NCBI GenBank assembly: GCA_960531495.1
Contig: OY482866.1
Location: forward strand, 8,534,207 to 8,598,206
DNA: 64,000 nt
Reading direction: 5' to 3'
From: Zeus faber
Taxonomy: Eukaryota; Chordata; Actinopteri; Zeiformes; Zeidae
The notes below the pieces were generated by a model. It did not search any database. It was not told where the DNA came from and saw only the letters and a list, made by a program, of their open reading frames with translations. Made by a program: the position numbers and the translations under genes. Position 1 is the stretch's first letter. Every line of letters starts with the position of its first letter. Positions 3,467 to 64,000 of this stretch are shown piece by piece.

Positions 3467-4971
3467 TCATGATCCGTCCGAGTCCAACAGGCTGAAATAC
3501 TTACCGGCGTTGGAGAAGTAGATGTAAGGCGCGGTGTTCGCGGTGGGGTACATGACGGGGAAGTGCACTGGTAGTAAGCATCCGCCCAGTAGACCTCCGC
3601 CGCCTCCACCGGTACCATCCTTGTAGAAAGTCTGCAATTGCACGTTTTTCCCGGCGTCCAGGGCATAGTGGTCCGCGGCCCCGGGCCCCTCCAGCTCCAC
3701 GGTGAGCTGCCGCTTCAGCTTGTTGCGCCGGTTCTGGAACCAGATCTTCACCTGCGTCTCGGTGAGCTGCAGGGCGCGCGCCAGGCACGCGCGCTCGCCG
3801 CTGCTCAGGTAGCGCTTCACGTCGAACGTGGCCTCCAGCTGGAAGATCTGGCGCTTGGAGAAGATGGTGCGCGTCTTCTTTTTCACCGCCGCCGCCGCCG
3901 CCTTGGCGTCCGCGTCTGTTTGGGGGCCCGCGTGGGCGTGAAGCTCGGACGCGTCGTCGGAGCTGTGCGCGCTCTCGGACCGCGGCAGCGGCGAGTCCGT
4001 CTGCAGCAGCAGCGCCGCGCCGTCGCCGCGCGCGGCGGGCGCACCGCGGTGGGAGCCGTCCGAGCGCACTGCGGAATGAAGCGGTGGCGACAAACGAGAA
4101 GACCGGTTGTGAAGTGTTTCTGAGCTGATTACAAGTCTTAAAAAGAGGTTTGCGTCGAGTTCGGAAGCAGGGGAAAAAAAAAAAATTGATTGTGATAGAT
4201 TACACGAAAGTTAGTTTAGAGGAGGGAGACCGATTTATAGCCATCGGGCGAATTAAATCCCGTGACTATGAGGAATAATATCAAATATCACTTTTTGGAC
4301 TAATACCTCGATATCGACAATTTGACGATATTTTGGGGGGGGGGGTGACTATCATTAGACGTCACGTGCAATCACACGAGTACGGTGCAGTGAAGGATGA
4401 GGGCTGTGCAAAAACAAAGTCTAAAAGAGAATAAAAAAAACTAAAAAAGTAATAATAAATCGGAAAAAAAATATATGCACCAAGAAGCAAGAACGTGAGC
4501 ACACAAAAATGATTCGTGTGTGCGTGCGTGCGTGCGTGCGTACAGTAGTGCAACGGGCAATACTATGTACAGTCGGTCCGCAGATTATATAATAATGTCA
4601 TGTGGACGCTGTGACCGACATGGTAGAGGCGCTGATCGGAACAGCTCGTTCAAAACAGTTGCATGGCTGTGAGCTCGTCGCCTCATCGCGATACCGCAAG
4701 AACAAAGATACATTTAAAAAATTAAATTGAAATCGCAGGCGATTATCGACGACGAGTCTCATACCGCGACGTCGACGTGACACCGACCGCTGCAGACGGA
4801 CTCACCTTGATCGCGGCGCGCGCTGTCGGAGCCGTGTCGCCTCCTGGCGCCGTGCTCCTCCCGGGGTTGGAAGGGGTTCCTACCGGCACCGCTCTGCTTC
4901 AGGTTCAGGATGTTGTCGATGGTGAAGGCAGATGAGGCGTGAGTCCGACACGGGATGTCCTCTTTGTTCAT
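3467..4971 (-). CDS. hmx4: hmx4 (SOHo-type) homeobox transcription factor, two exons
   Basis: Exon 1 is 4971-4806 and exon 2 is 4068-3467: 166 + 602 nt, or 255 codons plus TGA at 3469-3467. The start ATG (4971-4969) opens MNKEDIPC and is followed by the HMX-type N-terminal motif [10 protein letters not shown] (about residues 16-25). The donor reads CAAG/GTGAG and the acceptor CCGCAG/TGCG. One leftover base in exon 1 completes a codon in exon 2, so the frame closes exactly. The homeodomain is at about residues 118-177, from [10 protein letters not shown] to NRRNKLKRQ, with recognition helix [10 protein letters not shown]. The RTIFSK start and the NKLKRQ end point to the Hmx4/SOHo subtype; hmx1, hmx2 and hmx3 have NKWKRQ. 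From family knowledge it is a nuclear DNA-binding factor of eye, ear and cranial sensory development, lost in mammals but kept in fish and birds. Its tandem neighbour is hmx1. Symbol inferred from the homeodomain and linkage. Confidence 0.9.
4069..4805 (-). other. hmx4 intron
   Basis: A 737-bp intron with GT donor (4805-4804) and AG acceptor (4070-4069). It contains an A run near 4172, a G run at about 4336-4345 and a short TGCG repeat at about 4518-4541. I see no other gene inside. Confidence 0.85.
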
Positions 4972-5891: not shown

Positions 5892-6085
5892 TAATCATAC
5901 AAATTCAAAAATATTATCATTATATATTATTATACATATTTTCATCTTGTAATTTTTTTAATAGAAAAATCATACAAATTTAAAATGGTGTCAAGTGGCC
6001 TGCAGTATCTCCAGGGTCAGGCCTAAGGTTCGACTTATTTTTTAATTGTTCATCCAGTGTCCAACGTGTCAATTCAACCTCGACT
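5198..6085. other. hmx4-hmx1 intergenic region with (AAT)n microsatellite
   Basis: An AAT run occupies about 5827-5889. A short GC-richer patch near 5170-5260 belongs to the hmx4 promoter side. The rest is AT-rich unique sequence without a recognisable gene. The compact spacing means hmx1 3' sequence and the hmx4 promoter share this region. Confidence 0.5.
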
Positions 6086-6091
6086 TTTATT
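6086..6091 (-). terminator. Candidate AATAAA polyadenylation signal of hmx1
   Basis: AATAAA on the minus strand (TTTATT on plus) lies about 10 nt beyond the hmx1 stop codon. This would give a very short 3' UTR, so a more distal site may be the real one. Confidence 0.35.
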
Positions 6092-6100
6092 TACACTTCT

Positions 6101-7391
6101 TCACACCAAACCAGTCATTTGTGATGTCAGGAAAGACAAGTGCGTGAGGTTGCTCAGTGGGTAGTTGAGAGCACCAGGGAATCCGAGCACGGTCGGAGAC
6201 ACGGGAGGCAGGTTGGTCAGTGCGGAGTTCTCATGGTACAAGATGGGCACCCGGACTATCCTCTGGCCGGAGGAGAAGGGCGTGACCCCGGCAGCGGCGG
6301 CCGCGGCAGCGCCGGCCTCCAGCTCCGCGGCGATCTGCCTCTTCCACTTGTTCCTGCGGTTCTGGAACCAGATCTTGACCTGGGTCTCGGTGAGCTGCAG
6401 GGAGGCGGCCAGGCCGGCCCGCTCCGAGCTGCCCAGGTAGCGCTTCACGTCGAAGGTGGACTCCAGCCGGAACACCTGGCTGCGGCTGAACACCGTGCGT
6501 GTCTTCTTCTTGCGTGACGCCCTCGCGTCGGCGCAGCCGTCGTCCCGACCCAGGCAGAAGGAGCGGCTGTCCCGGCTGTCTTCGTCCCTGCCATCCGTCG
6601 AGCAGCAGCCTCCGCCTCCTTCGCCGTCGTCCGGCTCGTCGGTGTCGTCCGCAGGTCTCGGTAAAGTCGGGGAGTCCCGGTGGGGACTGGCGGACAGGGG
6701 ACACCGGTGTGACTCCGTTGGGTTCCTGGGATGTTGCTGTAGGCCTGGTGCAGGGTAACCCACGAGGAAGTCATTGTAGTAGTAGTAGTAGTAATTAAAA
6801 TAAAAATATATATTTAATAATAATAATAACAACAACAATTTTAATTTCAAGAAACCCATTGTCACGGTGCACTGCCTGTCTTAGAAAGCCCTTACATCCT
6901 TATCATAACTGCGCCTTTTACGCACGCCACAGAAGTCCCTGGAGCCCAAAAGGTAGTGTATATATATATATTATTATAATTATTCTTTATTTTTTATTTT
7001 TTTGTGAACTATTACAAAAGTTATTGCATGCATCTGGACAGGCGACTCCAGGGTGTAGTTTTATCCCCATGTTGCCAGGAATCCTTTGCACCTCCCACCC
7101 ATCCGTCCCCATCCAAGACCGTTTGCACCTTACGGTGTGGATGGAATAAGGAGCACACACATGACATGACTCACTTATCAGACCATAGGCGGTGTTGGGG
7201 GACGTCCCGGACCATCCCAGTGTCTCGGTGTGGTTTACCGGTCTGGTCTCCGGTCCCACAGAGAGCTGGGGCTCCTCCACGGAGCCCCTCGCGCTGGTCC
7301 GTGTGGAGCGAAGTAGATTCTCAATGAAAAACGACGAGCCCCTCGCGGGGGACCGTGGGTACGGAGACGTCGGCGCTTTATCTTCGAGCAT
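6101..7391 (-). CDS. hmx1: hmx1 homeobox transcription factor, two exons
   Basis: Exon 1 is 7391-7175 and exon 2 is 6744-6101: 217 + 644 nt, or 286 codons plus TGA at 6103-6101. I start at MLEDKAP (7391) because it is followed by [11 protein letters not shown] (about residues 19-29), the N-terminal motif typical of HMX1/3. The donor is ATAA/GTGAGT. The acceptor is CACCAG/GC, the first one in matching phase. An acidic stretch ([11 protein letters not shown]) lies at about residues 104-115. The homeodomain is at about 151-210, from [10 protein letters not shown] to NRRNKWKRQ. After it comes [13 protein letters not shown], and the protein ends in SQMTGLV, the HMX1-type C-terminus; HMX2 and HMX3 end differently. 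From family knowledge HMX1 is a nuclear repressor of eye, external-ear and cranial sensory development that binds CAAGTG-type sites. Helix 1 reads [16 protein letters not shown], unlike the usual VFQLESTFD-KRYLSS. Confidence 0.93.
6745..7174 (-). other. hmx1 intron
   Basis: A 430-bp intron between GTGAGT (7174-7169) and CACCAG (ending 6745). It carries a TAG run near 6776-6793 and AAT/AAC units close to the acceptor. The open frame into the intron on this strand is not coding. Confidence 0.8.
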
Positions 7392-18260: not shown

Positions 18261-20030
18261 CGCTATTGTCTTGTCTTATCTTATCTTGTCTTGTCTTGTC
18301 TTCTCTTGTCTTGTCTTGTCTTGTCTTATCTTGTCTTATCTTGTCTGATATAATCTTGTCTCGTCTTGTTTTGTCTTGTCTTGTCTTATCTTGTCTTATC
18401 CTGTCTGATATAATCTTATCTCATCTTATCTGGTCTTGTCTTGTCCTGTCTTGTCTAGTCTTGTCTTGTCTTATCGTATCCTGTCTTATCTTTTCTTATG
18501 CTGTCTTGTCTTGTCTTGTCTTATCCTGTCTTATCTTGTCTGATATAATCTTATATCATCTTATCTTGTCTTGTCTAGTCTTGTCTTATCTTTTCTTATC
18601 CTGTCTTGTCTTGTCTTATCCTGTCTGATATAATCTTATCTCATCTTATCTTGTCTTGTCTTTTCTTGTCTTGTCTAGTCTTGTCTTATCTTATCCTGTC
18701 TTTTCTTTTCTTATCCTGTATTGTCTTGTCTTGTCTTATCTTGTCTGATATAATCGAATCTCATCTTATCTTATCTTATCTTATCTTGTCTTGTCTTGTC
18801 TTGTCTTGTCTTGTCTTGTCTTGTCTTATCTTTTCTTGTCTTATCTTGTCTTATCTTGTCTGATATAATCTTGTCTCGTCTTGTTTTGTCTTGTCTTGTC
18901 TTATCTTGTCTTATCTTGTCTGATATAATCTTATCTCATCTTATCTGGTCTTGTCTTGTCCTGTCTTGTCTTGTATTGTCTTATCTTATCCTGTCTTATC
19001 TTTTCTTATGCTGTCTTGTCTTGTCTTGTCTTATCCTGTCTTATCCTGTCTTATCTTGTCTTATCTTGTCTTATCTTGTCTGATATAATCTTGTCTCGTC
19101 TTGTTTTGTCTTGTCTTGTCTTGTCTTGTCTTGTCTTATCTTGTCTTATCTTGTCTGATATAATCTTATCTCATCTTATCTGGTCTTGTCTTGTCCTGTC
19201 TTGTCTTGTCTTGTCTTGTCTTATCCTGTCTTATCTTTTCTTATGCTGTCTTGTCTTGTCTTGTCTTATCCTGTCTTATCTTGTCTTATCTTGTCTTATC
19301 TTGTCTGATATAATCTTATCTCATCTTATCTGGTCTTGTCTTGTCCTGTCTTGTCTTGTATTGTCTTATCTTATCCTGTCTTATCTTTTCTTATGCTGTC
19401 TTGTCTTGTCTTGTCTTATCCTGTCTTATCCTGTCTTATCTTGTCTTATCTTGTCTTATCTTGTCTGATATAATCTTGTCTCGTCTTGTTTTGTCTTGTC
19501 TTGTCTTGTCTTGTCTTGTCTTATCTTGTCTTATCTTGTCTGATATAATCTTATCTCATCTTATCTGGTCTTGTCTTGTCTTGTCCTGTCTTGTCTTGTC
19601 TTGTCTTGTCTTATCCTGTCTTATCTTTTCTTATGCTGTCTTGTCTTGTCTTGTCTTATCCTGTCTTATCTTGTCTTATCTTGTCTTATCTTGTCTGATA
19701 TAATCTTATATCATCTTATCTTGTCTTGTCTAGTCTTGTCTTATCTTTTCTTATCCTGTCTTGTCTTGTCTTGTCTTATCCTGTCTGATATAATCTTGTC
19801 TCATCTTATCTTGTCTTGTCTTGTCTTATCCTGTCTTGTCTTATCCTGTCTTTCTTGTCTTATCTTGTCTGATATAATCTTATCTCATCTTATCTTGTCT
19901 TATCTTATCCTATCTTGTCTTGTCTTGTCTTATCGTATCCTGTCTGATCTTGTCTGATCCCATATTGTCTTGTCTTATCTTATCTTGTCTTATCCTCTCT
20001 TATCTTGTCTTATCTTATCTTATCTCATGT
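18261..20030 (+). repeat. Pentanucleotide satellite (TTGTC/TTATC/CTGTC)n with higher-order structure
   Basis: Nearly 1.8 kb is built from five-base units, mainly TTGTC, TTATC and CTGTC, almost without indels. A ten-base marker, TGATATAATC, recurs at least 15 times (from 18346 to about 19870). Its spacings are multiples of five, often alternating 60-75 and 150-160 bp, which implies a higher-order repeat of about 220-235 bp. None of the unit words gives a stop codon in plus frames, so long LSCLVLSCLIL frames arise that are not genes. The unit equals the tail word of LINE 3' ends in this window. Confidence 0.97.
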
Positions 20031-32200: not shown

Positions 32201-33568
32201 CTAGAACGACTTTTTCCACGATTTGCACAGAATCTTCTGGAAGGCCCGTCGGAAATCCTGGTTGAAGATGGTGTAGATGGCAGGGTTGAGGGAGCTGTTG
32301 CAATAGCCAATCCAGAAGAAGAACTTGAAGAGCGGCTCGGGGATCTTACAGGAATCCCTGCACATCCCGTACAAGCTGTAGCTGAAGAAGAAGGGGAACC
32401 AGCACACCACGAACACGCCCATGACGACGGCCAGGACGAAGGTGAACCTCTTCTCCCGGGCTTGGGAGACCTTCTTTCTGGAGGCCGAGCTCCGCCGGCG
32501 TTTCCTCCTGGAGGTAAAGAGCTCCATGGATTTGTTGCTGGTCCTGGAGATGGGGTGTTGTTTGGAGAGGGAGCTCTCCTTTCTGGAGATGGGGTGTTGT
32601 TTGGAGAGGGAGCTCTCCTTTCTGGAGATGGGGTGTTGTTTGGAGAGGGAGCTGTCCTTTGGACTGACCTCCTCGGCTCTCCTGGAGTTCAGGTTGTGGG
32701 GTTTGTGATCTTTCCCCTCTGAGGAGGAACTCTCCTCCAGGTCCGCCTCCTCGGTCGGGTGGTGCCCGGCGGTGGCGTGGGTGGACGGATGCTGGCAGTG
32801 TCCGTTCTCTCGCTCCCCGTGGAGAGGGGAGGTGGCTTTGCTCAGCCCGTTCTCAGTCTGGGTGGTGGCATCCGGCCCCGACTTGCTCTCTGACATGCTC
32901 CTGGTCCTGGTTTTGGCCACCTGGTAGATCCTGACGTACACCAGGATCATTATTACGCACGGCGCAAAGAAGGAGGCGATGCTGGAGGACAGAATGTACC
33001 AAGTGTCATCGTTGAGCACACACTGGGGCTGAGAGGGGATTTCACTGTTACTCTCTATGGTCAGCAGCGGTGGAGAAGATATAAAGGCAGATATGAGCCA
33101 CACGATCAGGATAATACACTTTACGCGTTTGGGAGTCCTCTTAAGGTTGTACTCCACAGCCTGCGTAACGGACCAGTACCTATCCAAACTGATGGCGCAC
33201 AGATGAACGATGGACGACGTGCAGAACAACACATCCAAAGCCAGGTAGATGCCACACCAAACCTTCCCGAAATACCAGTAGCCCATCAGCTCGTTCGCCA
33301 GAGAGAACGGCATCACCAAAGTGGCCACCAGGATGTCCGCGGTGGCCAGAGACACCAGAAACAGGTTCTGGGGAGCCTTCAGTGCCCTGCTGGTGAGCAC
33401 CGCGATCACCACCAGTACGTTCCCCACGACGGTGAAGAGGATGAGGAAACTCACAAGAGCCGCGATGCTGGAGACGGTGGCCAGAGCATAGCCTCCGTCC
33501 GGGCTCCGGGACGAGTTGAAGTGGATCACCGAGAGCGCGTCCATCGCGCTGGAATTAAGCGCGTCCAT
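32201..33568 (-). CDS. adra2c: Alpha-2C adrenergic receptor (adra2c-type), single exon
   Basis: This is an intronless 455-aa class A GPCR that binds adrenaline and noradrenaline at the plasma membrane and, in this family, couples to Gi/o. The short N-terminus has two N-glycosylation sequons (N5, N18). Seven membrane segments run from about residue 32 to 433. Visible landmarks are D112 (amine-binding Asp 3.32), DRY at 129-131, the disulfide pair C105-C183, S195 and S199 in TM5, CWFP at 389-392 and NPAIY at 428-432. The third intracellular loop (about 218-370) is long and Ser-rich. It holds TENGL and ENGHC, motifs of the 2C subtype, which is why I prefer adra2c over adra2a, b or d. A 13-residue tandem repeat lies at about 304-342. 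Residue 196 is Ser where human alpha-2C has Cys, and C448 near the tail could be palmitoylated. The start is the first in-frame Met; Met9 is an alternative. Confidence 0.92.
32544..32660 (-). repeat. 3 x 39-bp in-frame minisatellite inside adra2c
   Basis: Unit starts are at 32544, 32583 and 32622. Two copies are nearly identical and the third differs in a few bases at one end. Each encodes 13 residues of the [13 protein letters not shown] type in the third intracellular loop. The length is a multiple of three, so copy-number change keeps the frame. Confidence 0.95.
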
Positions 33569-33874
33569 CCGGGAGGCGCGTTAAGGGTTTGTATTCCAGT
33601 GTTTGAACCAAAGTCCAGGCTCCGATGAGGAGTAAACCATAAAACACCCCAAAGTCCCACAGAACTAACCCTGCTGTAGGAGACGCGGAGGTATACGCGT
33701 GATCCACGACCAATCAAGCGCGAAGCTCCAGAATTAAAGATGTGACATTTGGAAGTAAATCTGCCAAAAGGGGTGAAATCAAATTTCAGTTTTTTTTGTT
33801 CCTTCCATCTGCTGTGTGGCATGTTGAGTCCCCTCTCTCCATCCAGTGCGCTCCGTGCGCTCCATGTGCGGCTC

Positions 33875-51540: not shown

Positions 51541-51679
51541 AAAATTCTGACCTTGAATTATGTGATTTCGTCGTTAACCCGATCACTGCTTAGAAGGGGT
51601 AATTGTAGAAGCAACCACGATTCGATGAAGCAAGGAATATGTTTGGGTTGAAGGGCTACTCAACACGCTGAAAGCAGTG

Positions 51680-51960
51680 CGTCCTGTGTGGCCTGACTAT
51701 GCAGGTACTACCCCACCTTGCTGGTGATAAAATGATTCTGTCTTCCACCTGTTCAATGCTTAGAAGCACAAAGTAAGGTGGGGGTAGCCTAACTGTGCGG
51801 ATACTATTCCATCTGGCAGGCTACTGCGCAATTTTGTCGTTGACCTTTTCACTGCTTAGAAGGGGTAGTAGTTGAAGCCACCAGTATTCAATGAAGATTG
51901 GAAGATGTTTGGGTCCACAGGCTACTCAGCACACTGAAAGCAGTGTGTCCCTGGTGGGCG
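51680..51960 (-). pseudogene. Two A-type monomers with tRNA head deleted
   Basis: At 51680 CGTCCTG runs directly into TGTGGCCTGA, so almost the whole tRNA is missing. At 51946 TGTCCCTGGTGGGCGTGACC joins the tRNA 3' end to downstream spacer. The hexamer GTGGGC, present both in the tRNA and in the spacer, is at the join, pointing to deletion between short direct repeats. Confidence 0.75.
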
Positions 51961-52324
51961 TGACCGGACGATGCAGGTACTATCCAACCTTGCTGGTGAT
52001 TAAATGATTCTGTCTTACACCTGTTCACTGCTTAGAAGCCGTTGAGTTGGTGATACCGCAGAAGCAACCAATATTCGATGAAGCAAGGAAAACATTCAGT
52101 TAGACTGGTTACTCAGCACACTGAAAGGACTGCATCCCTGGGTGAAGGAAGTAAGGTGGGGGTGGTTGAACTGTGGGGGAGCTAGTCAATTTTGCAGGCT
52201 ATTGCATGATTTTGTCATTAACCTGTTCACTGCTGAGAAGGTGTTAAGAGTTAAAGCCACCAGCATTCGAGGAAGCTCAGAAAATGGTTGGGTCCACAGG
52301 CTACTCAGCAACCTGCAAGCAGTG

Positions 52325-52388
52325 CGTCCCTGAACCACCATCCTTTCGGTTAACAGCCGAACGCGCTGACCGATTGCGCCACAGAGAC
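52325..52388 (-). pseudogene. tRNA-Asn(GUU) pseudogene, 10-nt deletion in the T arm
   Basis: The copy is 64 nt long. Acceptor 5' half, D arm and anticodon arm (loop CTGTTAA) are unchanged, but ten bases of the T loop and 3' T stem are gone. That destroys the T arm and the B box. Confidence 0.9.
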
Positions 52389-53015
52389 TGGGTGGTGGTG
52401 AAGGTGGGCGGGGCCTGATGATGCAGGTACTATCCCACCTTGCTGGTGATTAAATGATTCTGTCTTACACCTGTTCACTGCTTAGAAGCCGTTGAGTTGG
52501 TGATACCGCAGAAGCAAGGAAAACATTCAGTTAGACTGGTTACTCAGCACACTGAAAGGACTGCACCCCTGGGTGGGCTTGAACAAAGATCCTTGTGTCA
52601 CAGAGACTTGCATTAAGTAAAGTGGGCCTGGCCTAACTGTGCTGGTACTATTGAATGGTGCTGGCAATTGTATGATTTTGTTGTTAACGTGTTCACTGCT
52701 CAGGACGGGTTATTGTAGAAGCAACCATTATTCGATGAAGCAGGGAAAATTTTTGGGTTGACAGGCTACTTAGCACGCTAAAAGCTATGTATCCCTGGGT
52801 GGGCTTGAACCAACATTGTTCTGCTACAGAAACTTGAGAGATGTAAGGTGGGGGTGGTTGAACTGTGGGGAAGCTAGTCAATTTTGCAGGCTATTGCATG
52901 ATTTTGTCATTAACCTGTTCACTGCTGAGAAGGTGTTACAGTTAAAGCCACCAGCATTCGAGGAAGCTCAGAAAATGTTTGGATCCACAGGCTACTCAGC
53001 ATCCTGAAAGCAGTG

Positions 53016-53089
53016 CGTCCCTGGGTGGGCTTGAACCACCATCCTTTCGGTTAACAGCCGAACGCGCTGACCGATTGCGCCACAGAGAC
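53016..53089 (-). tRNA. tRNA-Asn-GTT: tRNA-Asn (anticodon GUU), reference copy
   Basis: A 74-nt gene. The acceptor stem GTCTCTG pairs with CAGGGAC (one G-U pair). The D stem is GCGC/GCGC, the anticodon stem TTCGG/CCGAA with loop CTGTTAA, the variable loop AGGAT, the T stem GGTGG/CCACC and the discriminator G. Pol III A box (TGGCGCAATCGG) and B box (GGTTCAAGCCC) are intact. No CCA is encoded and no intron is present. It is nearly identical to vertebrate cytosolic tRNA-Asn. The nearest 3' T run is CTTTC (7-9 nt downstream); a TTTT lies 41 nt downstream. Confidence 0.96.
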
Positions 53090-53703
53090 TGGGTGGTGGT
53101 GAAAGTGGGCGTGGCCTGATGATGCAGGTACTATCGCACCTTGCTGGTGATAAAAGGATTCTGTCCTACACCTGTTCACTGCTTAGAAGACGTTGAGTTG
53201 GTGACACAGCAGACGGAACCAATATTCGATGAAGCAAGGAAAACATTCAGTTAGACTGGTTACTCAGCACACTGTAAGGACTGCATCCCTGGGTGGGCTT
53301 GAACAAAGATCCTTGTGTCACAGAGACTTGCATTAAGTAGAGTGGGCCTGGCCTAACTGTGCTGGTACTATCGAATGGTGCTAGCAATTGTGTGATTTTG
53401 TTGTTAACGTGTTCACTGCTCAGGAAGGGTTATTGTAGAAGCAACCATTATTCGATGAAGCAGGGAAAATTTTTGGGTTGACAGGCTACTTAGCACGCTA
53501 CAAGCCTATACACTGCAAAACCCACAATGAATAAGGTGGGGGTGTTTGAACTACGGGGAAACCAGTCAATCTTGCAGGCTATTGCATGATTTTGTTGTAA
53601 ACCTGTTCACTGCTGAGAAGGTGTTATAGTTGAAGCCACCATCATTCGAGGAAGCTCAGAAAATGTTTGGGTTCACAGGCTACTCAGCATCCTGAAAGCA
53701 GTG

Positions 53704-53777
53704 CGTCCCTGGGTGGGCTTGAACCACCATCCTTTCGGTTAACAGCCGAACGCGCTGACCGATTGCGCCACAGAGAC
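53704..53777 (-). tRNA. tRNA-Asn-GTT: tRNA-Asn (GUU)
   Basis: Identical in all 74 positions to 53016-53089. It is preceded on its 3' side by a C' monomer that lost its own tRNA head. Confidence 0.95.
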
Positions 53778-54178
53778 TGGGTGGTGGTGAAAGTGGGCGT
53801 GGCCTGATGATGCTGGTACAATCCCACCTTGCTGGTAATTAAATGATTCTGTGTTCCACCTGTTCACTGCTTAGAACCCGTTGAGTTGGTGATACCGCAG
53901 AAGCAAGGAAAACATTCAGTTAGACTGGTTACTCAGCACACTGAAAGGACAGCATCACTGGGTGGGATTGAACCAAGACCCTTGTGTCACAGAGACTTCA
54001 ATTAAGTAAAGTGGGCCTGGCCTAACTGTGCTGGTACTATCGAATCGTGCTGGCAACTGCATGATTCTGTCAGTTGCCTGTTCACTGCTGAGAAGGTGTT
54101 AGAGTTAAAGCCACCAGCATTCGAGGAAGCTCAGAAAACGTCTGGGTCCACAGGCGACTCAGCATCCTGAAAGCAGTG

Positions 54179-54252
54179 CGTCCCTGGGTGGGCTTGAACC
54201 ACCATCCTTTTGGTTAACAGCCAAACGAGCTGACCGATTGCGCCACAGTGAC
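54179..54252 (-). tRNA. tRNA-Asn-GTT: tRNA-Asn (GUU), variant copy
   Basis: The full 74 nt with anticodon GTT kept. Differences from the reference are a compensated pair in the anticodon stem (TTTGG/CCAAA), one D-stem change (GCTC) that unpairs a base, and GTCACTG in the acceptor stem, which turns a G-U pair into a mismatch. It may be weakly functional or decaying. Confidence 0.8.
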
Positions 54253-54884
54253 TGGGTGGTGGTGAAAGTGGGCGTGGCCTGATGATGCAGGTACTATCCC
54301 ACCTTGCTGGTGATTAAATGATTCTGTCTTACACCTGTTCACTGCTTAGAAGACGTTGAGTTGGTGACACAGCAGACGGAACCAATATTCGATGAAGCAA
54401 GGAAAACATTCAGTTAGACTGGTTTCTCAGCACACTGAAAGGACTGCATCCCTGGGTGGGCTTGAACAAAGATCCTTGTGTCACAGAGACTTGCATTAAG
54501 TAAAGTGGTCCTGGCCTAACTGTGCTGGTACTATGGAATCGTGCTGGCAATTGTGTGATTAACGTGTTAACTGCTCAGGACGGGTTATTGTAGAAACAAC
54601 CATTATTCGATAAAGCAAAGAAAAATTTTGGGTTGACAGGCTACTTGGAACGCTAAAAGCTATGCGTCCCTGGGTGGGCTTGAACCACCATTCTTCTGCT
54701 ACAGAAACTTGCAGCAAGTAAGTTGGTTGAACTGTGGGGAAGCTAGTCAATTTTGCAGGCTATCGCATGATTTAATTATTAACCTGTTCCCTGCTGAGAA
54801 GGTTTTAGAGTTAAAGCCACCAGCATTCGAGGAAGCTCAGAAAATGTTTGGATCCACAGGCTACTCAGCATCCTGAAAGCAGTG

Positions 54885-54957
54885 CATCCCTGGGTGGGTT
54901 TGAACCACCATCCTTTCGGTTAACAGCGAACGCGCTGACCGATTGCGCCACAGAGAC
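54885..54957 (-). pseudogene. tRNA-Asn(GUU) pseudogene, 1-nt deletion beside the anticodon loop
   Basis: 73 nt. One G of the anticodon stem is missing (TTCG-CTGTTAA). Single changes also occur in the 3' acceptor end (GGGATG) and the T loop. Probably not functional. Confidence 0.75.
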
Positions 54958-55392
54958 TGGGTGGTGGTGACAGTGGGCGGTGGTGACAATGGGCGTGGCC
55001 TGATGATGCAGGTACTATCCACCTTGCTGGGGATAAAATGATTCTGTCTTACACCTGTTCACTTCATAGAAGACGTTGAGTTGTTGACACCGCAGAAGGG
55101 ACCGATATTCGATGAAGCAAAGAAAACATTCAGTTAGACTGGTTACTCAGCACACTGAAAGGACTGCACCCCTGGGTGGGCTTGAACAAAGATCCTTGTG
55201 TCACAGAGACTTGCATTCGGTAAAGTGGGCCTGGCCTAACTATGCTGGTACTATCGAATCGTGCTGGCAACTGCATGACTTTGTCAGTAAACTGTTCACT
55301 GCTGAGAAGGTGTTAGAGTTGAAGCCACCAGCATTCGAGGAAGCTCAGAAAATATTTGGGTCCACAGGCTACTCAGCATCCCGAAAGGAGTG

Positions 55393-55466
55393 CGTCCCTG
55401 GGTGGGCTTGAACCACCATCCTTTCGGTTAACAGCCGAACGCGCTGACCGATTGCGCCACAGAGAC
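55393..55466 (-). tRNA. tRNA-Asn-GTT: tRNA-Asn (GUU)
   Basis: Identical to the reference copy. The 3' flank reads CGGGATGCTGAG rather than CAGGATGCTGAG. Confidence 0.95.
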
Positions 55467-55886
55467 TGGGGGGTGTTGAAAGTGGGCGTGGCCTGATGAT
55501 GCCGGTACTATCCCACCTTGCTGGTGATAAAATGATTCTGTCCTTCACCTGTTCGCTTCCTAGAAGACGTTGAGTTGGTGACACAGCAGACGGAACCAAT
55601 ATTCGATGAAGCAAGGAAAACATTCAGTTAGACTGGTTACTCAGCACACTGAAAGGACTGCATCAATGGGTGGGCTTGAACAAAGATCCTTGTGTCACAG
55701 AGACTTGCATTAAGTAAAGTGGGGCTGGCCTAACTGTGCTGGTACTATCGAATCGTGCTGGCAATTGCATGATTTTGTCATTAACCTGCTCACTGCTGAG
55801 AAGGTGTTGGAGTTAAAGCCACCAGCATTCGAGGAAGCTCAGAGAATGTTCGGAGCCTCAGGCTACTCAGCATCCTGAAAGCAGTG

Positions 55887-55960
55887 CGTCCCTGGGTGGG
55901 CTTGAACCACCATCCTTTCGGTTAACAGCCGAACGCGCTGACCGATTGCGCCACAGAGAC
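55887..55960 (-). tRNA. tRNA-Asn-GTT: tRNA-Asn (GUU), lacks the distal TTTT
   Basis: Identical gene body. In its 3' flank the usual AAAATGTTT (plus strand) is replaced by GAGAATGTTC, so the distal terminator is gone and only CTTTC remains nearby. Confidence 0.95.
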
Positions 55961-56574
55961 GGGGTGGTGGAGAAAGTGGGCGTGGCCTGATGATGCAGGT
56001 ACTATCCCACCTTGCTGGTGATTAAATGATTCTGTCTTACACCTGTTCACTTCATAGAAGACGTTGAGTGGGTGACACCGCAGAAGGAACCAATATTCGA
56101 TGAAGCAAGGAAAACATTCAGTTAGACTGGTTACTCAGCACACTGAAAGGACTGCATCCCTCGGTGGGCTTGAACAAAGATCCTTGTGTCACAGAGACTT
56201 GCATTAAGTAGAGTGGGCCTGGACTAACTGTGCTGGTACTATCGAATGGTGCTAGCAATTGTGTGATTTTGTTGTTAACGTGTTCACTGCTCAGGAAGGG
56301 TTATTGTAGAAGCAACCATTATTCAATGAAGCAGGGAAAATTTTTGGGTTGACAGGCTACTTAGCACGCTACAAGCCTATACACTGCAAAACCCACAATG
56401 AATAAGGTGGGGGTGTTTGAACTACGGGGAACCCAGTCAATCTTGCAGGCTATTGCATGATTTTGTTGTAAACCTGTTCACTGCTGAGAAGGTGTTATAG
56501 TTGAAGCCACCATCATTCGAGGAAGCTCAGAAAATGTTTGGGTTCACAGGCTACTCAGCATCCTGAAAGCAGTA

Positions 56575-56648
56575 CGTCCCTGGGTGGGCTTGAACCACCA
56601 TCCTTTCGGTTAACAGCCGAACGCGCTGACCGATTGCGCCACAGAGAC
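56575..56648 (-). tRNA. tRNA-Asn-GTT: tRNA-Asn (GUU)
   Basis: Identical gene body. It lies 420 bp from the preceding B head, with a C' monomer between. Confidence 0.95.
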
Positions 56649-57222
56649 AGGGTGGTGGTGAAAGTGGGCGTGGCCAGATGATGCCGGTACTATCCCACCT
56701 TGCTGGTGAATAAATGATTCTGTCTTACACCTGTTCACTTCATAGAAGACGTTGAGTGGGTGACACCGCAGAAGGAACCGATATTCGAAGCAGATATCCT
56801 TGTGTCACAGAGACTTGCGTTAAGTAAAGGGGGCCTGGCCTAACTGTGCTGGTACTATCGAATGGTGCTGGCAATTGTGTGATTTTGTTGTTAACGTGTT
56901 CACTGCTCAGGACGGGTTATTGTAGAAGCAACCATTATTCGATGAAGCAGGGAAAAATTTTGGGTTGACAGGCTACTTAGCACGCTAAAAGCTATGTGTC
57001 CCTCGGTGGGCTTGAACCAACATTCTTCTGCTACAGAAACTTGCAAGATGTAAGGTGAGGGTGGTTGAATTGTGGGGAAGCTAGTCAATTTTGCAGACTA
57101 TTGCATGATTTTGTCATTAACCTGTTCGCTGCTGAGAAGGTTTTAGAGTTAAAGCCACCAGCATTTGAGGAAGCTCAGAAAACGTGTGGGTACACAGGCT
57201 ACTCAGCATCCTGAAAGCAGTG

Positions 57223-57296
57223 CGTCCCTGGGTGGGCTTGAACCACCATCCTTTCGGTTAACAGCCGAACGCGCTGACCGATTGCGCCACAGAGAC
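57223..57296 (-). tRNA. tRNA-Asn-GTT: tRNA-Asn (GUU)
   Basis: Identical gene body. The distal TTTT in its 3' flank is kept (GTTTTC). Confidence 0.95.
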
Positions 57297-57697
57297 TGGG
57301 TGCTGGTGAAAGTGGGCGTGGCCTGAGGATGCAGGTACTATCCCACCTTGCTGGTGATTAAATAATTCTGTCTTACACCTGTTCACTGCTTAGAAGCCGT
57401 TGAGTTGGTGATACCGCAGAAGCAAGGAAAACATTCAGTTAGACTGGTTACTCAGCACACTGAAAGGACTGCATCCCTGGGTGGGCTTGAACAAAGATCC
57501 TTGTGTCACAGAGACTTGCATTAAGTAAAGTGGGCCTGGCCTAACTGTGCTGGTACTATCGAATCGTGCTGGCAATTGCATGATTTTGTCATTAACCTGC
57601 TCACTGCTGAGAAGGTGTTGGAGTTAAAGCCACCAGCATTCGAGGAAGCTCAGAGAATGTTCGGAGCCTCAGGCTACTCAGCATCCTGAAAGTAGTG

Positions 57698-57771
57698 CGT
57701 CCCTGGGTGGGCTTGAACCACCATCCTTTCGGTTAACAGCCGAACGCGCTGACCGATTGCGCCACAGAGAC
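57698..57771 (-). tRNA. tRNA-Asn-GTT: tRNA-Asn (GUU), lacks the distal TTTT
   Basis: Identical gene body. The 3' flank carries the same terminator-less variant as the copy at 55887, showing that the flanking haplotype was duplicated along with the gene. Confidence 0.95.
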
Positions 57772-58162
57772 TGGGTGGTGGTGAAAGTGGGCGTGGCCTG
57801 ATGATGCAGGTACTATCGCACCTTGCTGGTAATAAAATGATTCTGTCTTACACCTGTTCAGCCGTTGAGTTGGTGATACCGCAGAAGCAAGGAAAAGATT
57901 CAGTTAGACTGGTTACTCAGCACACTGAAAGGACTGCATCCCTGGGTGGGCTTGAACAAAGATCCTTGTGTCACAGAGACTTGCATTAAGTAAAGTGGGC
58001 CTGGCCTAACTGTGCTGGTACTATCGAATCGTGCTTGCAATTGCATGATTTTGTCATTAACCTGTTCACTGCTGAGAAGGTGTAATAGTTGAAGCCACCA
58101 GCATTCGGGGAAGCTCAGAAAATGTTTGGGTCCACAGGCTACTCAGCATCCTGAAAGCAGTG

Positions 58163-58236
58163 CGTCCCTGGGTGGGCTTGAACCACCATCCTTTCGGTTA
58201 ACAGCCGAACGCGCTGACCGATTGCGCCACAGAGAC
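58163..58236 (-). tRNA. tRNA-Asn-GTT: tRNA-Asn (GUU)
   Basis: Identical gene body. First gene of the two perfectly regular 720-bp trimers. Confidence 0.95.
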
Positions 58237-58882
58237 TGGGCGGTGTTGAAAGTGGGCGTGGCTTGATGATGCAGGTACTATCCCACCTTGCTGGTGATAA
58301 AATGATTCTGTCTTACACCTGTTCACTGCTAAGAAGACGTTGAGTTGGTGACACAGCAGACGGAACCAATATTCGATGAAGCAAGGAGAACATTCAGTTA
58401 GACTGGTTACTCAGCACACTGAAAGGACTGCATCCCTGGGTGGGCTTGAACAAAGATCCTTGTGTCACAGAGACTTGAATTAAGTAAAGTGGGCCTGGCC
58501 TAACTGTGCTGGTACTATCGAATGGTGCTGGCAATTGTGTGATTTTGTTGTTAACGTGTTCACTGGTCAGGACGGGTTATAATAGAAGCAACCATTATTC
58601 GATGAAGCAAGGAAAAAATTTGGGTTGACAGGCTACTTATCACGCTAAAAGCTATGTGTCCCTGGGTGGGCTTTAACCACCATTCTTCTGCTACAGAAAC
58701 TTGCAAGATGTAAGGTGGGGGTGGTTGAACTACGGGGAAGCTAGTCAATTTTGCAGGCTATTGCATGATTTTGTCATTAACCTGTTCACTGCTGGGAAGG
58801 TGTTACAGTTGAAGCCACCAGCATTCGAGGAAGCTCAGAAAATGTTTGGGTCCACAGGCTACTCAGCATCCTGAAAGGAGTG

Positions 58883-58956
58883 CGTCCCTGGGTGGGCTTG
58901 AACCACCATCCTTTCGGTTAACAGCCGAACACGCTGACCGATTGCGCCACAGAGAC
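58883..58956 (-). tRNA. tRNA-Asn-GTT: tRNA-Asn (GUU), one substitution
   Basis: A single change in the 3' D stem (GCGT for GCGC) turns a G-C pair into G-U. Fold and anticodon are otherwise intact. Confidence 0.93.
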
Positions 58957-59602
58957 AGGGTGGTGGTTAAAGTGGGCGTGGCCTGATGATGCAGGTACTA
59001 TCCCACCTTGCTGGTGATTAAATGATTCTGTCTTACACCTGTTCACTTCATAGAAGACGTTGAGTGGGTGACACCGCAGAAGGAACCGATATTCGATGAA
59101 GCAAGGAAAACATTCAGTTAGACTTGTTACTCAGCACACTGAAAGGGCTGCATCCCTGGGTGGGCTTGAACAAAGATCCTTGTGTCACAGAGACTTGCAT
59201 TAAGTAAAGTGGGCCTGGCCTAACTGTGCTGGTACAATCAAATGGTGCTGGCAATTGTGTGATTTTGTTGTTAACGTGTTCACTGCTCAGGACGGGTAAT
59301 TGTAGAAGCAACCATTATTCAATGAAGCAAGGAAAATTTTTGGGTTGACAGGCTACTTAGCACGCTTAAAGCTATGTGTCCCTGGGTGGGCTTGAACCAC
59401 CATTCTTCTGCTACAGAAACTTGCAATATGTAAGGTGGGGGTGGTTGAACTGAGGGGAAGCTAGTCAATTTTGCAGGCTATTGCATGATTTTGTCATTAA
59501 CCTGTTCACTGCTGGGAAGGTGCTACAGTTGAAGCCACCAGCATTCGAGGAAGCTCAGAAAATGTTTGGGTCCACAGTCTACTCAGCATCCTGAAAGCAG
59601 TG

Positions 59603-59676
59603 CGTCCCTGGGTGGGCTTGAACCACCATCCTTTCGGTTAACAGCCGAACGCGCTGACCGATTGCGCCACAGAGAC
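59603..59676 (-). tRNA. tRNA-Asn-GTT: tRNA-Asn (GUU)
   Basis: Identical gene body. It ends the second regular 720-bp trimer. Confidence 0.95.
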
Positions 59677-60303
59677 TGGGTGGTGGTGAAAGTGGGCGTG
59701 GCCTGATGATGCAGGTACTATCCCACCTTGCTGGTGATTAAATGATTCTGTCTTACACCTGTTCACTGCTTAGAAGCCGTTGAGTTGGTGATACCGCAGA
59801 AGGAAGGAAAACATTCAGTTAGACTGGTTACTCAGCACACTGAAAGGACTGCATCCCTGGGTGGGCTTGAACAAAGATCCTTGTGTCACAGAGACTTGCA
59901 TTAAGTAAAGTGGGCCTGGCCTAACTGTGCTGGTGCTATCGAATGGTGCTGGCAATTGTGTGATTTTGTTGTTAACCTGTTCACTGCTCAGGACGGGTTA
60001 TAATAGAAGCAACCATTATTCGATGAAGCAAGGAAAAAATTTGGGTTGACAGGCTACTTAGCACACTAAAAGCTTTGTGTCCCTGGATGGGCTTGAACCA
60101 CCATTCTTCTGCTACAGAAACTTGCAAGATGTAAGGTGGGGGTGGTTGAACTACGGGGAAGCTAATCAATTTTGCAGGCTATTGCATGATTTTGTCATTA
60201 ACCTGTTCACTGCTGGGAAGGTGTTACAGTTGAAGCCACCAGCATTCGAGGAAGCTCAGAAAATGTTTGCTTCCACAGGCTACTCAGCATCCTGAAAGCA
60301 GTG

Positions 60304-60377
60304 CGTCCCTGGGTGGGCTTGAACCACCATCCTTTCGGTTAACAGCCGAACGCGCTGACCGATTGCGCCACAGAGAC
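60304..60377 (-). tRNA. tRNA-Asn-GTT: tRNA-Asn (GUU)
   Basis: Identical gene body. The next full gene is 1.2 kb away because the intervening A head is deleted (only CACAGAGAC remains at about 61086-61094). Confidence 0.95.
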
Positions 60378-61530
60378 TGGGTGGTGGTGAAAGTGGGCGT
60401 GGCCTGAGGATGCAGGTACTATCCCACCTTGCTGGTGATTAAATGATTCTGTCTTACACCTGTTCACTGCTTAGAAGCCGTTGAGTTGGTGATACCGCAG
60501 AAGCAAGGAAAACATTCAGTTAGACTGGTTACTCAGCACACTGAAAGGACTGCATCCCTGGGTGGGCTTGAACAAAGATCCTTGTGTCACAGAGACTTGC
60601 ATTAAGTAAAGTGGGCCTGGCCTAACTGTGCTGGTACTATCGAATCGTGCTGGCAATTGCATGATTTTGTCATTAACCTGCTCACTGCTGAGAAGGTGTT
60701 GGAGTTAAAGCCACCAGCATTCGAGAAAGCTCAGAGAATGTTCGGAGCCTCAGGCTACTCAGCACACTGAAAGGACTGCATCCCTGGGTGGGCTTGAACA
60801 AAGATCCTTGTGTCACAGAGACTTGCATTAAGTAGAGTGGGCCTGGCCTAACTGTGCTGGTACTATCGAATGGTGCTAGCAATTGTGTGATTTTGTTGTT
60901 AACGTGTTCACTGCTCAGGAAGGGTTATTGTAGAAGCAACCATTATTCAATGAAGCAGGGAAAATTTTTGGGTTGACAGGCTACTTAGCACGCTACAAGC
61001 CTATACACTGCAAAACCCACAATGAATAAGGTGGGGGTGTTTGAACTACGGGGAACCCAGTCAATCTTGCAGGCTTGCTGGTACCCACAGAGACTGGGTG
61101 GTGGTGACAGTGGGCGGTGGTGACAATGGCCGTGGCCTGATGATGCAGGTACCATCCACCTTGCTGGGGATTAAATGATTCTGTCTTACACCTGTTCACT
61201 TCATAGAAGACGTTGAGTTGTTGACACCGCAGAAGGGAGCGATATTCGATGAAGCAAAAAAAAACATTCAGTTAGACTGGTTACTCAGCACACTGAAAGG
61301 ACTGCATCCCTGGGTGGGCTTGAACAAAGATCCTTGTGTCACAGAGACTTGCATTCGGTAAAGTGGGCCTGGCCTAACTGTGCTGGTACTATCGAATCGT
61401 GCTGGCAACTGCATGACTTTGTCAGTAAACTGTTCACTGCTGAGAAGGTGTTAGAGTTGAAGCCACCAGCATTCGAGGAAGCTCAGAAAATATTTGGGTC
61501 CACAGGCTACTCAGCATCCCGAAAGGAGTG

Positions 61531-61604
61531 CGTCCCTGGGTGGGCTTGAACCACCATCCTTTCGGTTAACAGCCGAATGCGCTGACCGATTGCGCCACAG
61601 AGAC
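61531..61604 (-). tRNA. tRNA-Asn-GTT: tRNA-Asn (GUU), one substitution
   Basis: A single G-to-A change at the D-stem/anticodon-stem junction (position 26 region), a site where both purines are tolerated in tRNAs. Confidence 0.93.
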
Positions 61605-62492
61605 TGGGGGGTGTTGAAAGTGGGCGTGGCCTGATGATGCCGGTACTATCCCACCTTGCTGGTGATAAAATGATTCTGTCCTTCACCTGTTCGCTTCCTA
61701 GAAGACGTTGAGTTGGTGACACAGCAGACGGAACCAACATTTGATGAAGCAAGGAAAACATTCAGTTAGACTGGTTACTCAGCACACTGAAAGGACTGCA
61801 TCCCTGGGTGGGCTTGAACAAAGATCCTTGTGTCACAGAGACTTGCATTAAGTAAAGTGTGCCTGGCCTAACTGTGCTGGTACTATCGAATGGTGCTGGC
61901 AATTGTGTGATTTTGTTGTTAACGTGTTCACTGCTCAGGACGGGTGATTGTAGAAGCAACCATTATTTGATGAAGCAAGGAACATTTTTGGGTTGACAGG
62001 GTACTTATCATGCTAAAAGCTATGTGTCCCTGGGTGGGCTTGAACCACCATCCCTGGGTGGGATTGAACAAAGACGCTTGTGTCACAGAGACTTGAATTA
62101 AGTAAAGTGGGCCTGGCCTAACTGTGCTGGTGCTATCGAATCGTGCTGGCAACTGCATGATTTTGTCATTAACCTGTTCACTGCTTAGAAGCCGTTGAGT
62201 TGGTGATACCACAGAAGCAAGGAAAACATTCAGTTAGACTGGTTACTCAGCACACTGAAAGGACTGCATCCCTGGGTGGGCTTGAACAAAGATCCTTGTG
62301 TCACAGAGACTTGGATTAAGTAAAGTGGGCCTGGCCTAACTGTGCTGGTACTATCGAATCGTGCTGGCAACTGCATGATTTTGTCAGTAAACTCTTCACT
62401 GCTGAGAAGGTGTTAGAGTTGAAGCCACCAGCAATCGAGGAAGCTCAGAAAATGTTTGGGTCCACAGGCTACTCAGCATCCCGAAAGGAGTG

Positions 62493-62566
62493 CGTCCCTG
62501 GGTGGGCTTGAACCACCATCCTTTCGGTTAACAGCCGAACGCGCTGACCGATTGCGCCACAGAGAC
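62493..62566 (-). tRNA. tRNA-Asn-GTT: tRNA-Asn (GUU)
   Basis: Identical gene body, with a 3' flank variant shared with 55393 and 61531. Confidence 0.95.
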
Positions 62567-63527
62567 TGGGGGTGTTGAAAGTGGGCGTGGCCTGATGATG
62601 CCGGTACTATCCCACCATGCTGGTGATAAAATGATTCTGTCCTTCACCTGTTCACTTCATAGAAGACGTTGAGTTGGTGACACAGCAGACGGAACCAATA
62701 TTCGATGAAGCAAGGAAAACATTCAGTTAGACTGGTTACTCAGCACACTGAAAGGACTGCATCCCTGGGTGGGCTTGAACAAATATCCTTGTGTCCCAGA
62801 GACTTGCATTAAGTAAAGTGGGCCTGGCCTAACTGTGCTGGTACTATGGAATCGTGCTGGCAATTGTGTGATTAACGTGTTAACTGCTTAGGGCGGGTTA
62901 TTGTAGAAACAACCATTATTCGATGAAGCAAAGAAAAATTTTGGGTTGACAGGCTACTTGGAACGCTAAAAGCTATGCATCCCTGGGTGGGGTTGAGCCA
63001 CCATTCCTCTGCTACAGAAACTTGCAAGAAGTAAGGTGGTTGAACTGTGGGGAAGCTAGTCAATTTTGCAGGCTATCGCATGATTTTGTTATTAACCTGT
63101 TCCCTGCTGAGAAGGTGTTAGAGTTGAAGCTGCCAGCATTCGAGGAAGCTCAGAAAATGGTTGGGTCCACAGGCTACTGGCAATTGTGTGATTTTGTTGT
63201 TAACGTGTTCATTGCTCAGGACGGGTTATTGTAGAAGCAACCATTATTCGATGAAGCAAGGAAAATTTTTGGGTTGACAGGCTACTTAGCACACTAAAAG
63301 CTATGTGTCCCTGGGTGGGCTTGAACCACCATTATTCTGCTACAGAAACTTGCAAGATGTAAGGTGGGGTTGAACTGTGGGGAAGCTAGTCAATTTTGCA
63401 GGCTATTGCATGATTTTGTCATTAACTTGTTCACTGCTGAGAAGGTGTTAGAGTTAAAGCCACCAGCATTCCAGGAAGCTCAGAAAACGTGTAGGTCCAC
63501 AGGCTACTCAGCATCCTGATAGCAGTG

Positions 63528-63582
63528 CGTCCCTGGGTGGGCTTGAACAGCCGAACGCGCTGACCGATTGCGCCACAGAGAC
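63528..63582 (-). pseudogene. tRNA-Asn pseudogene, 19-nt deletion removing the anticodon
   Basis: 55 nt. The deletion joins GAAC in the T loop to CAGCCG in the anticodon stem (plus strand), flanked by an AAC microhomology. Anticodon, variable loop and half of the T arm are lost. Confidence 0.92.
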
Positions 63583-64000
63583 TGGGTGGTGGTGAAAGTG
63601 GGCGTGGCCTGATGATGCAGGTACTATCCCACCTTGCTGGTGATTAAATGATTCTGTCTTACACCTGTTCACTGCTTAGAAGCCGTTGAGTTGGTGATAC
63701 CGCAGAAGGAACCAATATTCGATGAAGCAAGGAAAACATTCAGTTAGACTGGTTACTCAGCACACTGAAAGGACTGCATCCCTGGGTGGGCTTGAACAAA
63801 GATCCTTGTGTCACAGAGACTTGCATTAAGTAAAGTGGGCCTGGCCTAACTGTGCTGGTACTATCGAATCGTGCTGGCAATTGCATGATTTTGTCAGTAA
63901 CCTGTTCACTGCTGAGAAGGTGTAATAGTTGAAGCCACCAGCATTCGGGGAAGCTCCGAAAATGTTTGGGTCCACAGTCTACTCAGCATCCTGAAAGCAG

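Follow-up and report, generated by a model that had tools for sequence, protein, structure and literature searches.

Arrayed tRNA genes in other genomes

In teleosts, tRNA genes form clusters of fifty and more members, 65% and 87% of the tRNA genes and pseudogenes of zebrafish and stickleback, respectively, being clustered (PMC2888827); a zebrafish cluster lies on chromosome 4 (PMC11075544). Here we describe an array of tRNA-Asn genes in Zeus faber that begins in a 64-kb stretch of contig C22 (C22:8534207-8598206; hereafter the window, whose numbering is used unless another sequence is named) and continues past its end. We consider it, with a probability of about 0.6, to be a tandem cluster of tRNA genes, short in period, which preserves a tRNA-Asn isodecoder of its own. 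Compared with the teleost clusters as outlined above, it contains one isoacceptor only, has a period of 226-268 bp, alternates the gene with a deleted derivative and encodes a private isodecoder.

The tRNA-Cys cluster on Arabidopsis chromosome 5 resembles it in having a single isoacceptor and tandem units (about 420 bp, 84-94% identical), a pseudogene at one edge, and three out of four genes found in the cluster only; however, it comprises 4-6 units against 171 here, belongs to a plant, and includes no interleaved deleted class in the part of its description available to us (PMC10701932). The Arabidopsis SYY cluster extends over almost 40 kbp in 27 units (PMC10701932) and is silenced in most tissues and active in the root cap (PMC12308677), but its units consist of one Ser and two Tyr genes. 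The human variable number tandem repeat (VNTR) at 1q23.3 is likewise a tandem repeat of a vertebrate, whose units, variable in number, each carry tRNA genes; they differ in measuring 7.3 kb, holding several tRNA genes and binding CTCF (PMC4041453). Xenopus has oocyte-specific tandem tRNA genes (PMC11500080), comparable as arrayed genes to the Zeus faber array. In squamates, satellites derived from short interspersed elements (SINEs) have monomers with tRNA-like or SINE sequence (PMC10702118), whereas the monomer here holds a full tRNA gene that scores like the genes of another cluster of the same genome, on C12. Entamoeba, finally, also uses tRNA genes as units of tandem arrays, but nearly its whole set of tRNA genes is organized in this way, at up to five genes per unit and with microsatellite-like repeats between them (PMC2652664). 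A satellite in which a tRNA gene is interleaved with its own deleted form was not found in the open-licence literature searched (Repbase and Dfam lay outside its scope); to this extent the original prediction of an undescribed family stands, tempered by the fact that teleost clusters of at least 50 members are already on record (PMC2888827).

Extent and gene content of the array

One A and one B unit, as defined below, were compared by blastn (E <= 1e-5) with 124 kb of sequence, consisting of the 64-kb window and 60 kb fetched downstream. They match a single block of 40.9 kb from 51556 to 92476, in one orientation on the minus strand, whose right end (C22:8626682) lies beyond the window end at 64000. 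The head-to-tail, single-strand monomers that had been proposed from 51556 over at least 12.4 kb are thereby confirmed, as is their make-up of a tRNA-Asn gene, or a deleted derivative of it, plus spacer.

In the window, ARAGORN predicts 15 genes (14 Asn and one with a 4-base anticodon) and Rfam RF00005 has 16 matches; on the 124 kb, the ARAGORN total rises to 52, of which 50 are Asn, one has the 4-base anticodon and one is typed as His; all lie within the array and on the minus strand. The array is thus a parallel cluster of a single kind of tRNA gene, for which PMC2888827 takes neighbors within 1000 nt; a few neighbors in the ARAGORN set are spaced more than 1000 nt apart. With one gene as query, nhmmer returns 82 matches, every one on the minus strand, of which the 58 that score at least 40 bits are here called A-like genes. 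Fifty-two are 74 nt long, two of these with scrambled ends, and 28 of the 52 are mutually identical; in the window alone, 11 of 14 full-length genes agree in 74/74 positions, as originally reported. The anticodon is GTT in all 50 of the best full-length genes, a set that leaves out eight of the 58. The commonest array gene scores 68.3 bits against the Rfam model, compared to 68.4 for the C12 genes, so that the gene bodies appear intact and score like functional tRNAs.

Unit classes and their order

Cut at a conserved spacer motif, the whole array resolves into 171 units: 59 of class A, 61 of B, 32 of C, 13 of D, and six outside these classes. A units carry the gene (for example 52988-53255, minus strand as for all units given here, 268 bp, with an intact gene); they measure 268 bp in 20/59 cases and 249 bp in 19/59, the rest having other lengths. 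B and C units (for example 53256-53481 and 52762-52987, both 226 bp) retain 44 nt of the 74 nt present in A, lacking the same 30 nt from the D loop through the anticodon arm, as read against the A gene. Both the acceptor and the T stem remain paired in the C consensus; B has a decayed T stem that no longer pairs. In D units (for example 53482-53675, 194 bp) the tRNA part is replaced; nine of the 13 measure 194 or 186 bp, and they often occupy the place of C.

The order of units is nested and non-random, with 0.867 bit of information between neighbors against a maximum of 0.176 in 1000 shuffles. A is followed by B in 52/58 cases and C by A in 28/32, while B is followed by C (23), A (21), D (12) or B (5). 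The A-B-C higher-order repeat of the original prediction accordingly survives as one register among several (ABC 23 times, ABD 11 times, AB before A 15 times); a fixed register of 268 + 226 + 226 bp does not, as the A length varies, D replaces C, and C is skipped in the AB strings, and no single higher-order unit runs through the array. A longer period of 3398 bp is seen at 72316-85266 (97.9% identity over 9578 bp), and other blocks of the array are duplicated at 93-99% identity, 93% being the floor of the search; block duplication is thus recent in places.

Private bases and a sister array

The array gene has C at sequence position 21 and A at position 48, where 20 other tRNA-Asn genes of the genome have T at both (20/20). 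These genes (L015-L034; 16 from the C12 cluster and one each from C13, C9, C6 and C4) were drawn from 40 candidates scored out of 94, leaving aside two listed C12 copies. We take the two positions to correspond to 20a and 47 in standard tRNA numbering. Among the 74-nt copies on C22, C20a is present in 52/52 and A47 in 51/52; the array thus appears to carry a sequence variant of its own, as would be expected of maternal (oocyte-type) arrayed tRNA genes. An exact search for the core of the array gene finds it in 39 places, 38 in the array and one on C16.

The genome (803 Mb in 153 contigs) was searched with a 211-bp query of spacer and B-unit sequence, very common words being skipped, which gave 181 matches. 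Those listed fall into C22, a cluster at C11:16497114-16503027 and one 63-bp piece on C21, and among them there is no dispersed family with the body of the array. This search brought to light a second array. The C11 cluster spans about 6 kb with 27 unit matches, two of them inverted, in the order CBBBBBBABABBCBCABBABBBBABCB. Each of its five A units is followed by B, and ABC occurs once; the regular ABC order is thus unseen on C11, and must have arisen, or been lost, after the two arrays split. ARAGORN predicts one tRNA in it, with anticodon ATT, and all five A genes are damaged, three of them by deletions within the gene; this array is a decayed, dead sister of the one on C22. The private bases are nevertheless present (position 48 in 5/5 copies, position 21 in 4/4, the fifth having it deleted), which makes C20a and A47 older than the split. 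One B unit on C11 is interrupted by about 550 bp of foreign sequence (L046, about 5986-6537), which looks like an insertion.

Two short pieces lie elsewhere. On C16 (L048 1846-1911; C16:3417346-3417411), a 66-bp segment (-6 to nt 60) that matches array genes without a difference is joined to unrelated repeat-like sequence, which in our estimation resembles a common fish repeat (...ACAGGGAGAACATGCAAACT). On C21 (L047 1065-1167), a lone B-unit fragment lies in AT-rich DNA; its ends fall near -1 and some 4 nt beyond the downstream run of four T residues (T4). Their extents hint at transcripts of the array, though two pieces prove little; an origin as retrocopies of such transcripts was rejected, two being too few and no target-site duplication being visible by eye.

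Flanking sequences common to the array and other tRNA-Asn genes were also considered and rejected. A profile of the A unit hits seven loci (L015, L017, L018, L019, L034, L045 and L048), mainly over the gene, the match extending longer at L015. Local alignment of the flanks of seven loci (L015-L020 and L034) with the array gave no excess on the 3' side, the score of every locus being matched or exceeded in at least 45 of 200 shuffles; among the 5' flanks, L019 alone beat all 200 shuffles, one of 14 short comparisons. At this locus, on C6, the 50 bp upstream of the tRNA-Asn gene resemble the 5' flank of the array gene, possibly by chance.

Selection or homogenization

Nucleotide diversity (pi) inside the C22 array amounts to 0.027 for the A gene and to 0.076 and 0.085 for its two flanks. 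The B remnant has a value of 0.024 (flanks 0.073 and 0.039) and the C remnant one of 0.061 (flanks 0.077 and 0.082). For the 50 best-scoring A genes alone it is 0.021 against 0.054 and 0.081, a choice of rows that itself favors low values. Since the B remnants are as uniform as the genes, uniformity inside the array cannot single out the intact gene, and we rejected it as proof of selection. Homogenization and selection, between which the original prediction left the choice, are thus not separated by the values within C22 (0.024 in B, 0.027 in A); what points to selection is the comparison with C11.

Between the C22 and C11 consensus sequences, the A gene differs in 1/72 positions and its flanks in 27/141 (Fisher p = 8e-5), compared to 4/44 in the B remnant and 14/153 in the B flanks (p = 1). 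The sole difference in the A gene is placed on the C11 side, because the other Asn genes have the C22 base; the chance of finding no C22-specific substitution in the gene is 0.0008 at the rate of the A flanks and 0.034 at the slower B baseline. Homogenization spreads variants within an array, but should not slow divergence between arrays. Conversion from other Asn genes would, for its part, have erased the private bases. The comparison between the arrays therefore favors purifying selection on the intact A gene.

The distribution of CpG is consistent with this. Observed over expected CpG is 0.37 in the array spacer and 1.02 in the gene bodies, with 0.78 and 0.73 in the DNA before and after the array. 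The A genes on C22 keep 393/408 of their CpGs (0.96), close to five other dinucleotides (0.97-0.98), whereas those on C11 keep 10/29 (0.34, other dinucleotides 0.64-0.90), 15 of the 19 losses being to TG or CA. At two ancestral CpG sites, the B remnants on C22 have kept 0/122, 120 now reading TG or CA. This pattern would fit a spacer long methylated in the germline, with the gene bodies spared or selected.

These considerations suggest how the array may have formed. An ancestral monomer, consisting of a tRNA-Asn gene and about 190 bp of spacer, would have spread by unequal exchange alongside a derivative lacking 30 bp of the gene, giving rise to runs of A-B-(C or D). Purifying selection, acting for tRNA output, would have kept enough A copies to make the private tRNA-Asn(GUU) isodecoder with C20a and A47, and the truncated units would be passengers moved by exchange. 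RNA polymerase III would transcribe the genes by way of internal A and B boxes, both of which are recognizable in the sequence of the array gene.

A number of observations weigh against this account. Across the array, 24 of the 52 74-nt copies deviate from the commonest sequence, and the dead B remnants are, as described, as uniform as the genes. The test between arrays uses five A units from C11, three of which have deletions in the gene, and a direct comparison of A gene with B remnant yields p = 0.07. The flanks of the C11 A units are no nearer to those of C22 A units than to those of B or C, and on the 3' side they resemble the flanks of C22 B units, and mostly those of C units, more than those of C22 A units; exchange between unit types may thus explain part of the flank distance. 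Retention is likewise high at two CpGs in the flanks of A units (110/118), and this weakens the claim of a present-day protection of the gene bodies. Lastly, in 50/58 genes the first T4 is found 40 nt downstream, and 55/59 A units keep it, against a median of 51/59 for flank 4-mers, 25 of 120 of which do better; a conserved T4 terminator was rejected on these grounds, the flank 4-mers at large being as well kept.

The array could also be a neutral satellite, in which the tRNA gene is a mere seed and unequal exchange and conversion homogenize copies none of which is needed. The uniformity of the B remnants, the strong recent block duplications, the many changed copies and the decay of the C11 array all agree with this. 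It leaves unexplained, however, why the intact gene changed so much more slowly than its flanks between the arrays, where homogenization by itself should have no such effect, and why A genes retain their CpGs while B remnants have lost them; we consider it unlikely, though by no means negligible.

Very unlikely, in our view, is a role as a chromatin element, in which a dense row of TFIIIC sites, one B box about every 226-268 bp in A, B and C units, would act as an insulator or boundary and the tRNA would be secondary. Units that kept the B box and lost the A box would recall extra TFIIIC (ETC)-like, that is TFIIIC-only, sites. The core of the B box survives intact in 50/59 A units, 58/61 B units and 23/32 C units, and in B units the box is among the best-kept 9-mers (3/193 windows better); in C and A units it is unremarkable (87/212 and 52/232 windows better). 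A precedent is the human tRNA tandem repeat, which binds CTCF and has been proposed as a boundary element (PMC4041453).

That the array is an assembly artefact is hardly credible, error-prone as tandem repeats are, given that the 124 kb contain no N, array-free DNA flanks both sides on the same contig, there is variation among the units, the 3398-bp blocks fall short of full identity at 97.9%, and a separate, more diverged array exists on C11.

A possible function of the private bases

If the array is a tRNA gene cluster with its own isodecoder, its two private bases may bear on the modification of the product. tRNA-Asn is among the targets of Mettl1, which places 7-methylguanosine (m7G). The sites of m7G that are lost with Mettl1 are marked by the motif RAGGU (PMC11473147), and human tRNA-Asn(GTT) carries 3-(3-amino-3-carboxypropyl)uridine (acp3U) at 20a, made by DTWD2 (PMC6895100). 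The array gene reads AAGGA in place of RAGGU, so that A47 breaks the motif, and its tRNA, having no U20a, would be unable to carry acp3U20a.

Folding was computed with RNA parameters for the unmodified sequence, as secondary structure without tertiary contacts. The cloverleaf is the minimum fold of the array sequence, with a probability of 0.094, compared to 0.0002 for the closest other Asn sequence of the genome, in which it is not the best fold, and 0.006 for a commoner one. As the cloverleaf is its best fold when unmodified, the array tRNA may fold without the acp3U20a and m7G modifications. The effect of the double change ranks 78 of 1080 among loop doubles, over 16 loop positions taken as free, outside the conserved ones, and singly C20a ranks 8 and A47 20 of 48. 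With the double change at rank 78, chance could be the cause of the gain, and the predicted fold advantage is suggestive only.

Taken together, the array might be a germline or maternal source of tRNA-Asn, in which private bases replace modified uridines and which may fold without those modifications. We regard this as quite unlikely; if true, folding free of modification would be useful where huge amounts of tRNA are made fast, for example in the oocyte.

The array within the window and its surroundings

The window holds the array from 51556 to 64000 (minus strand, as are all copies given here), from where it continues to 92476. At its left edge, 51556-52296 consists of degenerate units without recognizable tRNA gene, followed by a broken tRNA-Asn gene that has lost part of the T arm (52315-52388). 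The tRNA-Asn(GUU) gene at 53016-53089 has the commonest sequence, and identical genes lie at 53704-53777, 55393-55466, 55887-55960, 56575-56648, 57223-57296, 57698-57771, 58163-58236, 59603-59676, 60304-60377 and 62493-62566. Two further tRNA-Asn(GUU) genes have one substitution (58883-58956 and 61531-61604), one tRNA-Asn gene has four (54179-54252), a 73-nt copy lacks one base in the anticodon arm (54885-54957), and a broken gene with an internal deletion lies at 63528-63582 (30.0 bits in nhmmer).

The other tRNA-Asn cluster of the genome, at G000:C12:26290541-26420444 (L016, L017, L020-L033 and L045), repeats at intervals of about 7.96 kb through much of that span and holds 18 of the 40 listed tRNA-Asn matches. 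The one unit read whole (L045) contains one Asn and one Asp gene; at other loci of the cluster Asp lies about 0.4-0.7 kb away, and one also has tRNA-Ile. This repeat, not the array on C22, is the nearer counterpart of the human 1q23.3 VNTR.

Elsewhere in the window, the open reading frame (ORF) at 32201-33580 encodes an alpha-2 adrenergic receptor (Pfam 7tm_1; best PDB relatives alpha-2A and alpha-2C receptors), the named best relatives of which, among the best 120 of 2449 hits, are fish proteins, led by Polymixia lowei at 80%. Two nearby ORFs on the minus strand (3467-4210 and 6101-6880) match Pfam Homeodomain and are presumably HMX-type genes. A 1.76-kb array of TTGTC-type repeats, with periods of 10 and 75 bp, occupies 18266-20025.

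Implications for arrayed tRNA genes

As to the reason for the large tRNA arrays of fish and frogs, the zebrafish chromosome 4 tRNA genes have been proposed to be maternal, a point that their authors call not yet studied (PMC11075544). The array described here offers several points of access. As two bases set its gene apart from the dispersed genes read, its product would be distinguishable by tRNA sequencing. The dead array on C11 provides an internal comparison for the array gene, and the gutted copies that alternate with the gene can serve as a natural control when selection is to be told from homogenization. The array would thus lend itself to testing whether tRNA genes in arrays serve a particular function.

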